Source: a virus
IMG/VR virus record: IMGVR_UViG_3300001748_000009
Coordinates: 1-36,348 of that record
Length of the DNA stretch: 36,348 nt
Reading direction: 5' to 3' (one strand)
The notes under the pieces were generated by a model. It was not told where the DNA came from, searched no databases, and saw only the letters and a program-made list of their open reading frames with translations. The position numbers and the translations under genes are program-made. This document shows positions 2,813 to 7,194 of the stretch, piece by piece; the stretch's first letter is position 1, and every line of letters starts with the position of its first letter.

Positions 2813-3238
2813 TCATAGCACAATGATTGTAATCAGTGCGCCTGGAAGCTCAGACCCGATGCAGTAACGCTTTTCAGCGTTGATACTCACGATGAGCGAA
2901 TCATCCTTGAGGAGCCCTGCATCAGTGGCAATCCCATCACCAACGGCCCGAATCAGCTTATCAAGATCAGGCTTGACCTGCATGTATTTAGGACTACTCA
3001 GCTTGAGCCCTGACTTATTGAAATGCGAGACTGGTCTAGGAAATTTGAAGATGACAGAGAGCGACACAGGGTCTGTGATCTGCATGCGAGGTTCTGTAGC
3101 GCGAATGACATCAGCGATTTGTCTGCGCCATGGCTTGAGCTTTTTTGCATTTGAATCGAAGAGATGACCGGATCTAGATACTGACTTGCTGCCCTGAGGA
3201 ATCGGAATCCCTTCCACGCAAAAACATAACGTCGTCAT
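2813..3238 (-). CDS. rusA: RusA-family Holliday junction resolvase
   Basis: A 141-residue protein of normal RusA length. RusA dimers cut four-way DNA junctions formed during recombination and replication. The N-terminus has the typical 'GIPIPQGSKS' block (10-19). The acidic metal-binding residues are in KPDLDK (89-94; D91, D93), D101 and KDDS (111-114), followed by INAEKRY. It is the last gene before the terminator in the leftward early arm. It fits with the exonuclease and annealing protein encoded a few kilobases away. The first 65 bp overlap the end of the preceding gene. Confidence 0.93.
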   Translation of the reverse strand: MTTLCFCVEGIPIPQGSKSVSRSGHLFDSNAKKLKPWRRQIADVIRATEPRMQITDPVSLSVIFKFPRPVSHFNKSGLKLSSPKYMQVKPDLDKLIRAVGDGIATDAGLLKDDSLIVSINAEKRYCIGSELPGALITIIVL

Positions 3239-3959
3239 AATATCTGAAGTTTAAACCAGCGGTTGGCCTCTTTAGTTTGGCAGATTTATAGATCGATGTG
3301 ATCTGTAGATAGTTGTCATCTGCCGCTTTTCTCAACGACTCATAGATTTTATTTGTCTCAAGGCAGACAATACGGCGTGGCTTTGCAATGCAGTAAGGAG
3401 GCTTTGTGTATTTTAAAGCAATATATTCACTCAGATCTACATCGCCAATGAGCGCATAGAGCTTATGATGCGGGATACCCCAAAAATATTTAGGGTTCTT
3501 TTTTGCGAAGGTCTTTACAGCGCCAAGGGTCACATATCTGTAATTTGATTTGCATTTGTATTGCACTTGAAGCCCTCGCTTTGTCCAGTACCAAACGCGC
3601 TCTTTTGAAATGCCAAGTTTTTTGGCTACATCAGATAATTTGATGTAGTTGTAAATTGGCCTCATATCGTAACCCAGCTCGTTTACTTTTGCTTTGAATG
3701 AATCGAACGACCTGTGAGGAAGACCCTTTTCTTTTGTTGTATTTTTAAAAGTCCTGTAAAAGAGTACAGACGGAAGGCAGTTAGCGTGATCGTGAATAAA
3801 TTGAATCTCTGCTTCAGTCCACTCCTGCCTGTTTTTGTCGCGCAACACCACAGAGCACTTGTAAGAACAAGTTTTCCGTGGTGAAACGCGATTTCTTGAG
3901 TCAATCGGAATAACAAAAAGCTTTCCGCAGACCTTGCACTTTCTTCGCGATGGGGTCAT
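3174..3959 (-). CDS. Zinc-finger/HTH/NUMOD1 DNA-binding protein
   Basis: A 261-residue modular protein. Cysteines 8, 11, 31 and 35 form a CxxC...CxxxC zinc-finger-like cluster. Residues 47-97 (WTEAEIQFI..., then LG) resemble a SANT/Myb-type helix-turn-helix. Residues 106-130 (KLSDVAKKLGISKERVWYW) resemble a MerR-type helix-turn-helix. Residues 196-240 (RIVCLETNKIYESLRKAA...) match the NUMOD1/IENR1 repeat of homing endonucleases. I see no HNH or GIY-YIG catalytic motif, so it may be a nuclease-less derivative working as a regulator, or a remnant of a homing endonuclease. It starts immediately after the stop of the 116-aa gene, and its tail overlaps rusA by 65 bp. Confidence 0.75.
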   Translation of the reverse strand: MTPSRRKCKVCGKLFVIPIDSRNRVSPRKTCSYKCSVVLRDKNRQEWTEAEIQFIHDHANCLPSVLFYRTFKNTTKEKGLPHRSFDSFKAKVNELGYDMRPIYNYIKLSDVAKKLGISKERVWYWTKRGLQVQYKCKSNYRYVTLGAVKTFAKKNPKYFWGIPHHKLYALIGDVDLSEYIALKYTKPPYCIAKPRRIVCLETNKIYESLRKAADDNYLQITSIYKSAKLKRPTAGLNFRYYDDVMFLRGRDSDSSGQQVSI

Positions 3960-5511: not shown

Positions 5512-6183
5512 TCACAACAAATCGCGCAAGACATTATTTATAGCAGGCTCAGCAAATCCGTCTTTCGCCGTGAACACACGACTGGCAGGATGCTTGAACT
5601 CAGGCTGCTGTTGTTCCTTAGGTGCAAAACGCATGCAGTTCTGCAGCGTGATCCCCTTCCATTTGCCGTTAATCGCAAGTTGAATCTGATCTGAGACAAA
5701 CGATGCACCAAACTTGTTTTTGATTTTGCATAGCTCTGTCATCAGCAAGGACCATGCGCGATCACCTTTGCTGCCCTGCTTGATCTGCCAGAAATCACGA
5801 ATGAGATCCTCGTATTGAATCAGATCAGCATGAATTTCACGCCTTGCAGAGCTGCGAGACCCCTCCTTCCTAGGGTTTCCCTCAGACTCCCTTCCGACAC
5901 CTTCCTCCCCATCAGTGCCACAGGGGGGAAGAATTTTCGAAGAAGCATTTATAGGAGCTTCTTCAAGTGCAAGTTTTTTCTTGCTGTAAATCGTGTCATC
6001 TACACGTAGGTGGTCTTCCGCACCAGCAGAGCACGTGGCTAATCTAGCGACACTGTCAAGTGATCTCAAGTAATCCTCTATACACATGCCGCAAAAAGCA
6101 GACAGGGAGAGGCTTTTGGGCTTTCGAGATTTGAGAAATTCAAGAAAATCTTCCTGTAAATACAGGCAAAGGCGTTGTGTCAT
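5512..6183 (-). CDS. RHH-domain protein with replication-like C-terminus
   Basis: I start at the ATG at 6183: an open frame continues upstream to 6261, but those codons run through a 20-bp repeat array. From this start the protein has 223 residues. Residues 1-42 (MTQRLCLYLQEDFLEFLKSR..., then SLSAFCGMCIEDYL) fit a ribbon-helix-helix DNA-binding domain. Residues 60-115 are a low-complexity linker. Residues 120-190 (FWQIKQGSKG, AWSLLMTEL, NGKWKGITLQNCMRF) resemble the C-terminal part of DnaD-like helicase-loading proteins. The repeats just upstream are plausible autoregulatory operators. Both domain calls are from pattern recognition; the RHH is the firmer one. Confidence 0.72.
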   Translation of the reverse strand: MTQRLCLYLQEDFLEFLKSRKPKSLSLSAFCGMCIEDYLRSLDSVARLATCSAGAEDHLRVDDTIYSKKKLALEEAPINASSKILPPCGTDGEEGVGRESEGNPRKEGSRSSARREIHADLIQYEDLIRDFWQIKQGSKGDRAWSLLMTELCKIKNKFGASFVSDQIQLAINGKWKGITLQNCMRFAPKEQQQPEFKHPASRVFTAKDGFAEPAINNVLRDLL

Positions 6184-6196
6184 TTTGAGCCGTATC

Positions 6197-6285
6197 GGCA
6201 TGAAGTGTACTGTCTTGGCACGTTGCATGCCTTGACGACACGAAGCATGCCATGACGGCACGATGTGTGCTGTTGCGTGTCATGG
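6197..6285. promoter_or_regulatory. 20-bp-phased direct-repeat operator array
   Basis: On the plus strand, units begin at 6197, 6217, 6237, 6257 and (degenerate) 6277, exactly 20 bp apart. Most begin GGCACG or a near variant and carry GCATGCC or TGTGC in the middle and TGAC near the end. The 20-bp step is about two helical turns, placing sites on one face of the DNA. The array lies between the divergent early arms and directly upstream of the RHH gene. RHH proteins usually bind such direct repeats cooperatively, so this is the best candidate for the early switch. Confidence 0.75.
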
Positions 6286-6333
6286 AATCGAAACTTGCTG
6301 CAATCCCGGAACTTGGTGTTAGGCTATGCAGGT

Positions 6334-6352
6334 CAGAACTTCATACGTTCTG
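6334..6352. promoter_or_regulatory. Inverted repeat upstream of annealing-protein gene
   Basis: CAGAAC (6334-6339) and GTTCTG (6347-6352) form a perfect 6-bp inverted repeat with a 7-bp spacer, 19 bp before the ATG at 6372. It could be an operator or a 5' mRNA hairpin controlling the rightward operon. Confidence 0.4.
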
Positions 6353-6371: not shown

Positions 6372-7034
6372 ATGAAACTCCCCTATCTCGCAGGCGTCGT
6401 CACAGAAAACGATGTCAGAAAGAAGGGCTCAGGGTCTTACGCCGCAGACTTCGTGTCTTGGGCCAAGATCATGCAGCTCATCAACAAGCACGCTCCAGGC
6501 TGGATGCCATGGCTTCTAAAAAACGAAGGCAGTCCAGTCTTTAAGGCTCCAAACGGCACTGCATATCTTCTTGTTTGCTTTGGAACCGACGTGGAGCGGA
6601 CCCCAGAATGGCCTCAAGCCATCATGGACAATCGCAACAACCCAATCCCTTATGACAAAGTCACGGCGCGTGACATCACTGACACTCATCGTCGCGCCAT
6701 CTGCAGTGCTGCTGCTGCTTTTTTCAGCCTTGGGTACGAACTCTGGGCAAGAGAGGAATATGCAGCTTCTGAAGCTGTGGCAGAGCCTCCCAAACTGCAA
6801 AAGCCCTCTACACCCAATCCCCCAGCCCCGCCTACAACTGAAGGAGTACGCGAAGAACTTGAAACTACTTTGATCGAGTTGCTTCAAACCAAATTGGCCA
6901 AGGGCGAAACCCTCGTCTACCTTGACACCAAAGCTGATCTCTGGAACCTCAAAAAAGGCGGCAGCCGTGTTCAGCAGATGAACATTGACCAATTACGTGT
7001 TTGCATTGATGAACTCTCAAGCAAAAAATACTAA
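6372..7034 (+). CDS. Single-strand annealing protein (Sak/DUF1071-like)
   Basis: The ATG at 6372 gives 220 residues beginning MKLPYLAGVVTENDV; the frame is open further upstream, but that part covers the intergenic control region. Near the N-terminus is SYAADFVSWAKIMQLI. The core includes IMDNRNNPIPYDKVTARDI followed by a helix with RRAICSAAAAF, as in the Sak/DUF1071 group of Rad52-fold phage recombinases. These proteins anneal single strands exposed by an exonuclease. A Pro-rich linker leads to a helical C-terminal segment. It heads the rightward early operon, and the RHH gene overlaps its end by 26 bp. Confidence 0.8.
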   Translation: MKLPYLAGVVTENDVRKKGSGSYAADFVSWAKIMQLINKHAPGWMPWLLKNEGSPVFKAPNGTAYLLVCFGTDVERTPEWPQAIMDNRNNPIPYDKVTARDITDTHRRAICSAAAAFFSLGYELWAREEYAASEAVAEPPKLQKPSTPNPPAPPTTEGVREELETTLIELLQTKLAKGETLVYLDTKADLWNLKKGGSRVQQMNIDQLRVCIDELSSKKY

Positions 7035-7194
7035 GAGCCGTCCTGTCACTGTCTTGATTGATGAGGATCTAAACTCATTTCTTGAGAAGGACATGGCTGC
7101 CAGCCTTCAGGACTCTGATCAAAAAACCTTGTCAAAAGGTGCTTTGATTCGCAAAATTCTTCGTTGCCACTACACCGGAAACTTCAATGTCTGA
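7009..7194 (+). CDS. Second ribbon-helix-helix protein, 61 aa
   Basis: The ATG at 7009 lies inside the end of the annealing-protein gene. The product begins MNSQAKNTKSRPVTVLIDED; the strand RPVTVLID is followed by helix 1 (EDLNSFLEKDMAASL) and helix 2 after KTLSKGALIRKIL. This matches a small CopG/Arc-like RHH repressor, with a basic N-terminus. It is downstream in the rightward arm while another RHH gene opens the leftward arm. It could bind the same 20-bp array or the 6334-6352 inverted repeat. The domain is fairly clear; the target is inference. Confidence 0.72.
   Translation: MNSQAKNTKSRPVTVLIDEDLNSFLEKDMAASLQDSDQKTLSKGALIRKILRCHYTGNFNV

Follow-up and report, generated by a model that had tools for sequence, protein, structure and literature searches.

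A window of 36,348 nucleotides from a cyanophage-like virus (the whole of IMG/VR record IMGVR_UViG_3300001748_000009) contains an array of 10-bp half-sites that ends at the start codon of a ribbon-helix-helix (RHH) gene. We propose, with a probability of roughly two-thirds, that the half-sites are iterons for an RHH replication initiator that the phage itself encodes, and that the array is an origin that probably also autoregulates the gene. This proposal is built on features established by computation, namely the array itself, its 10-bp phasing across the RHH gene family, the covariation of its sequence with the RHH beta strand, the exchange of array and strand as a cassette and the kinship of the C-terminal domain with phage initiators.

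The gap between the RHH gene (5512..6183, minus strand) and the divergent gene for a Sak-type single-strand annealing protein (6372..7034, plus strand) is 188 bases long and holds the array. A sequence-only reading of the window had reported units at 6197, 6217, 6237, 6257 and 6277, and these units read exactly as claimed (GGCATGAAGTGTACTGTCTT, GGCACGTTGCATGCCTTGAC, GACACGAAGCATGCCATGAC, GGCACGATGTGTGCTGTTGC and the degenerate fifth, GTGTCATGGAATCGAAACTT). The four full 20-bp units identified by the repeat analysis (6197..6276, plus strand) are dyads of the GGCA-N7-TGCC type, each made of two inverted half-sites (GGCACG/GCATGCC) running back from the ATG at 6183. In steps of ten from this ATG, the coding strand reads TCGTGCC / GGCATGC / CGTGTC / GGCATGC / CGTGCC / CAGTACAC / CATGCC. 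Because the half-sites alternate in orientation, the 10-bp half-site is the basic unit and the 20-bp unit is a dyad. Therefore, the reported 20-bp units are real, but the array is better described as about ten half-sites covering about 6184..6292 (unstranded) rather than 6197-6285, with the ATG-nearest, degenerate half-site lying flush with the RHH start codon.

Within 6190-6300, self-identity is 46/91 at lag 20 and 34/71 at lag 40, with secondary values of 0.44 at lag 5 and ~0.35 at lags 25 and 35, versus ~0.25 at most other lags. The top 60-base run at lag 20 contains 38/60 matches, which none of 2,000 dinucleotide shuffles of 6140-6340 equalled (maximum, 28), in agreement with the claimed 20-bp phase. 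The maximum at any lag from 5 to 44 in 30 whole-window shuffles was 36, and the array as a product of chance is excluded. A weight matrix built on the four units scored them at 19-23 bits in a window-wide scan; the next best score (13.1) was the array on its opposite strand, and no further full copy of the 20-bp unit was found within the window. Other tandem repeats in the window lie at 69-157, 1754-1795 and 1873-1970, with periods of 43, 16 and 33.

The likely binder of the array is the 223-aa product of the RHH gene, which consists of an RHH domain (residues 1-46; 6046..6183, minus strand), a disordered linker and a helical C-terminal domain of the replication-initiator type. The start at 6183 assumed previously is supported, as the arrays of relatives likewise end at the start codon. 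The 26 extra codons that the array would overlap from the farthest start were counted correctly, but that start is a GTG at 6261 and not an ATG. The AF2 model predicts a strand-helix-helix topology for residues 1-46 (helices at 11-20 and 27-46; block pLDDT 85-96 over residues 1-40), disorder to about residue 110 and confident helices at 119-186. Residues 1-9 are modelled as extended with high pLDDT, and the strand received no DSSP label, as expected because a single chain was modelled. This predicted fold is that of the RHH (MetJ/Arc) superfamily. The beta strand RLCLYL (residues 4-9; 6157..6174, minus strand) has R4, C6 and Y8 as its DNA-facing residues, and across the family these positions co-vary with array class. 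The window's protein matched no Pfam family (E 0.5) and no PHROG; a PDB sequence-profile search gave nothing, nor did Foldseek against PDB or BFVD at E 0.001, and the 7 members of A2 matched no RHH Pfam model at E 1. An initial scan with the protein as the query gave 8 pattern matches and no relative, and no full-length relative was found in the 'phages' collection.

Loci were gathered from the neighbours of annealing proteins, by a linker element and by searches for relatives (in one of which 80 of 116 relatives were kept). The resulting table comprises 97 loci with the RHH gene, the window included, of which 45 remained after dereplication at 85% upstream identity; 44 of these entered the partial Mantel test, 43 the leave-one-out test (two single-member classes being left out) and 39 the AT-patch test. 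A contig whose RHH gene was already listed under a different locus id counts only once. The g5 contigs L057 and L060-L065, seven in number, stand outside the table as near-copies of L058; their proteins were inspected, as were the arrays of L057, L060, L061, L063 and L064. L088 has no profile match, and L007 is truncated by the contig end.

In the 90 bp before the RHH gene, the mean identity over the 45 loci is 0.37, 0.33, 0.30 and 0.33 at lags 10, 20, 30 and 40, versus ~0.25 at most other lags. This stretch is 10-bp phased on average across the family, in line with the same-face layout postulated for the array. Direct repeats alone are a poor measure of phasing where half-sites are inverted, and a test that scores both orientations was used instead, in which 28/45 loci scored at <=3/300 shuffles and 34/45 at <=15/300. 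Relatives that keep the RHH gene without upstream repeats had been named as the case that would speak against the array as a binding site, and most loci are not of this kind. Eleven of the 45 fail the test (L010, L067, L069, L070, L084, L087, L109, L142, L143, L155 and L158). Among them, L087 carries GTGTC at 21-bp spacing and fails because of this period, which the both-orientation test still misses. Counts of the G[GA]CAC core within class g0 are in favour of an array in the window, L010 and L087, but not in L003 and L071.

Six or more classes can be told apart by half-site sequence, and class tracks three residues of the RHH beta strand, those that face the DNA. Strands of the type R-x-N/C-x-Y/F go with GTGTC/GTGCC, V-x-K-x-T with GGTnACC, x-x-F/Y-x-R with TGCAAGCA/GCTAGC, R-x-E-x-Q with CCCG, R-x-D-x-R with TTTCCGCAAA and R-x-T-x-T/A/S with TTGCATCACA. 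The strand class was recovered from the array alone in 43/43 leave-one-out trials (shuffled labels: mean 6.7, maximum 17), with classes that were named from strand sequences after some arrays had already been inspected; the Mantel test works from raw residue identity and not from these classes. When RHH-body and C-terminal similarity were removed, array similarity still correlated with the facing residues (partial r 0.50, 0/2000 permutations), and the partial Mantel test on 44 loci gave 0.52 (0/1000 permutations). The corresponding controls were -0.03 for the region from -260 to -180, 0.08 for buried strand residues, -0.23 for the E1 region described below and 0.19 for the gene start. RHH domains read DNA with the N-terminal beta strand, according to an excerpt of PMC6514445, and the pattern found here points to base reading by alternate residues of this strand. 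Judged from these comparisons of sequences, specific binding of the array by the RHH protein is highly probable, as the sequence-only reading had supposed for the adjacent protein. The co-variation between repeat unit and protein that it asked for was also found, but it lies in the beta strand and not in the RHH helix.

The array might instead be read by another protein, either a host factor or the product of a second small RHH-type ORF (7009-7194 of the window), which is also present in g1/g2 relatives and lies upstream of the annealing protein in L004-L017. The strand of this small protein is nearly constant across two array classes (KTVMLQ[IL]D in 23/24 g1/g2 occurrences and KSVMIQLD in one), and a host factor would not account for the way in which the array covaries with residues of the 223-aa protein; we find such a reader barely credible. 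A GTCTCAA/TTGAGAC inverted repeat adjoins the small RHH gene in relatives.

In some near-identical phages, the stretch of array plus strand is the only difference. Between L107 and L112, DNA identity is mostly 80-100% in both flanks but 33-53% in the stretch between about -103 and +40, and L143 and L138 show a like drop in array and strand between their flanks (mostly 33-53% versus mostly 80-100%). Comparison of the x-x-F-x-R and R-x-E-x-Q classes gave 68% identity for the RHH body, 64% for the C-terminus and 0.16 for the array, whereas the values within the x-x-F-x-R class are 68%, 59% and 0.43. A mosaic found later, L231, combines an R-x-D-x-R strand (ADLRI) with the other C-terminal type, and its array, TTTCCG, is as the strand predicts; L067, L108, L117 and L127 are additional mosaics. 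These sequence relationships indicate that array and strand are exchanged between phages as one cassette. The alternative that they travel together by common descent, without contact, could draw on the adjacency of the array and the RHH codons and on the gene-start DNA, which also tracks the facing residues (the partial 0.19 above). The effect is, however, limited to facing and not buried residues and disappears in E1 as well as 100 bp farther out from the gene. Moreover, array class switches repeatedly on the C-terminal-domain tree (13 changes over 30 rows, among them the window, a row misplaced in the group-B tree through a tail match to LRD), and mere common descent is very unlikely.

The C-terminal domain (5515..5829, minus strand) is common to the RHH gene product and gp28 of cyanophage KBS-S-2A (NC_020854), which PHROG places among O-like initiators (E 1.2e-17); the match between gp28 and the last 104 residues of the window's protein is weak (30.5% identity, E 1e-3). 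The gp28 gene, annotated as a hypothetical protein only, contains five 19-nt CCCAAAAGG-type repeats (L002, 16652-16787). The other C-terminal type, that of group B, matches PHROG families for replication initiation (best 2.6e-10), primosomal proteins and DnaD-like loaders, the annotated 'replication initiation protein' of the Prochlorococcus phage MED4-184 and the 'DNA replication protein O' of E. coli phages. In the cultured cyanophages KBS-S-2A and MED4-184, the same two C-terminal types follow winged-helix-like N-termini (in MED4-184 by sequence reading). The domain therefore appears to be kin to O-type phage replication initiators, clearly in group B and weakly in the window, and this kinship supports the earlier suggestion that a replication-type domain is fused to the RHH domain. 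No helicase, primase or polymerase family was found among the PHROG matches of the 29 window ORFs scanned, and therefore the phage should need those of its host.

The same evidence bears on a centromere-like partition site, at which the RHH protein would be a ParR-like adaptor on parC-type repeats. ParR proteins are RHH proteins that bind 10-, 11- or 20-bp repeats, as stated in part of PMC9426499, and the ParR/parC system resembles the present one in placing an RHH protein on 10-20-bp repeats. The two differ in that neither a ParM nor a ParA family appeared among the PHROG matches of the 29 ORFs, and the C-terminal domain here is a different one that matches replication initiators instead. A partition site is extremely unlikely.

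The linker contains two segments that are conserved as DNA, as judged from synonymous codon identity: E1 (6016..6060, minus strand; TTGACA...GGTGCGG), just after the RHH domain, and E2 (5869..5901, minus strand; GGTGTCGGAAGGGAGTCTGAGGGAAACCCTAGG). In group A (11 rows), this identity is 0.94-1.0 in E1 and 0.77-0.93 in E2 against a mean of 0.57; in group B (30 rows), E1 reaches 0.93/0.89 against 0.68. The group-B E1 pattern matched 67 IMG/VR stretches, and 67/67 lie in the RHH gene. L117 and L127 retain the TTGACA that opens E1 despite a different codon frame. E1 and E2 are candidates for an origin element or a recombination joint. An RNA or hairpin role of E1 was rejected (z-scores against shuffles were mostly between -0.8 and 0.7, with a minimum of -2.0); Rfam searches on three loci gave two sub-threshold matches only, and two E1 patterns found no match in GTDB species genomes. 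The exact E2 19-mer also occurs at 36-54 of L059, in the linker of an initiator-like gene of a GC-rich phage with another N-terminal domain (by reading); by estimate, ~0.4 such matches are expected by chance in the collection. E1 is followed by an AT-rich patch at which GC reaches the minimum of the fetched locus in 27/39 loci, all types included; in type-B relatives, whose genes mostly have 50-60% GC, the patch has 13-25%. In the window, the most AT-rich 60 bp of the linker (5932..5991, minus strand) are unremarkable, with a GC of 0.32 and 34 other places equally low.

The RHH gene leads an operon that also includes exonuclease and RusA-like genes. The window, L087 and L081 have the annealing protein on the divergent side, and so does L112, where it lies behind the small RHH gene; in L134, L137 and L142, the genes on this side look terminase-like (ORF reading, without a profile test). 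The array belongs to the RHH gene, without a fixed pair of arms, and the control of both early arms that had been suggested is not supported as a conserved function, since the array accompanies the RHH gene whichever gene lies divergent to it. Autoregulation of the RHH gene is likely from the position of the array. A sigma-70-type promoter before the array was rejected as a general feature, because 1/45 loci passed versus about 3 expected. In the window, the promoter scan gave no significant site before the array and one weak site inside the RHH gene; the array precedes the RHH start codon, and neither scan gave a significant promoter site that it would overlap. A conserved CTTGCC ... CTGGCTAATCT-like segment lies ~50-110 bp before the RHH start in L130, L137, L142, L164, L176 and others, just before the array, with GGCTAA in 11/21 loci of classes g2-g4. 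This segment fails a 4-of-6 test for a -10 hexamer, and its layout looks promoter-like. Elsewhere in the window, a 261-aa ORF (3174-3959) with a zinc-finger-like N-terminus (by reading) has weak NUMOD1/MerR-type Pfam and weak excisionase PHROG matches and is possibly a homing-endonuclease-like gene.

RHH proteins are classic autorepressors. The array could accordingly be an operator and nothing more, through which the RHH protein represses the early operon that encodes it, and perhaps also the divergent operon, with the origin elsewhere and a C-terminal domain that acts without the array. The position of the array at the start codon in the classes inspected and the leading place of the RHH gene in its operon would fit such a role. 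However, an operator has no need for long arrays, initiator kinship, an in-gene AT patch or the DNA-constrained elements of relatives, nor for the build of the cultured relative, in which an O-like protein (KBS-S-2A gp28) is combined with repeats, and no promoter before the array passed the test. We regard an operator alone as unlikely. The operator proposed in the sequence-only reading thus stands as a likely binding site of the RHH protein, but the comparison points beyond it to an iteron-type origin. GC skew, read by eye along the window, shows no switch or other origin signal at the array.

In the iteron origin that we infer, N-terminal RHH dimers would occupy the 10-bp half-sites one after another along the same face of the DNA, paired per 20-bp dyad, and would coat the stretch ahead of the start codon. 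The disordered linker would carry the C-terminal domain of the O-type initiator or helicase-loader kind, which may recruit the host's replicative helicase to the AT-rich linker DNA close by, where the strands would open. Occupancy of the array would also repress the RHH gene.

Phage lambda is a close known parallel. Excerpts of PMC3985674 and PMC7466680 describe O as a dimeric initiator that binds four 19-bp imperfect inverted repeats (iterons) and wraps DNA into an O-some, and ori-lambda as having an AT-rich region and a helicase brought by a partner. Several dyad iterons of ~19-20 bp (four 20-bp dyads here) and the kinship of the C-terminal domain with O-type proteins are shared. In contrast, the DNA-binding domain here is of the RHH type and not a winged helix, the array stands on 10-bp half-sites before the gene and ends at the start codon whereas the lambda iterons lie inside the gene, and the loader-like domain is within the same protein. 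A candidate counterpart of the AT-rich region, the patch after E1, is the locus minimum in the 27/39 loci mentioned above, but not in the window. KBS-S-2A gp28 and the MED4-184 initiator share the two C-terminal domain types, gp28 with in-gene 19-nt repeats in the lambda arrangement, but their N-termini are winged-helix-like and the repeats are in the linker, not upstream. In the PLE satellites of Vibrio cholerae, the DNA-binding domain of RepA co-varies with the ori, the C-terminus is conserved and swapping is repeated, according to parts of PMC8263062. The present family shows the same combination of a DNA-binding part co-varying with repeat DNA, a conserved C-terminus and swapping; PLE, however, has a RepA_N-type domain, is a satellite in another host and has neither an RHH domain nor a 10-bp array.

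RHH proteins are known as repressors, antitoxins, relaxosome and partition factors. Among titles and abstract openings of the full-text literature on ribbon-helix-helix proteins, we found no RHH phage replication initiator, and an iteron origin read by an RHH protein would, if true, be a new build of phage origin. We lean towards regarding these phages as a replicon class in which the origin is read by an RHH beta strand, and not a winged helix, on 10-bp-phased half-sites, and array plus strand form a swapped specificity cassette of ~150-200 bp. Origin swapping in PLE satellites may allow escape from the origin-cutting nuclease Odn, as part of PMC8263062 states. The parallel may point to origin-directed conflict among cyanophages, and a PLE-like pressure behind the swapping here is a guess by analogy. 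If true, the presence of at least six specificities in one family would constitute a natural recognition code for RHH proteins, and the matched sets of strand and array would make this code for beta-strand DNA reading directly testable.
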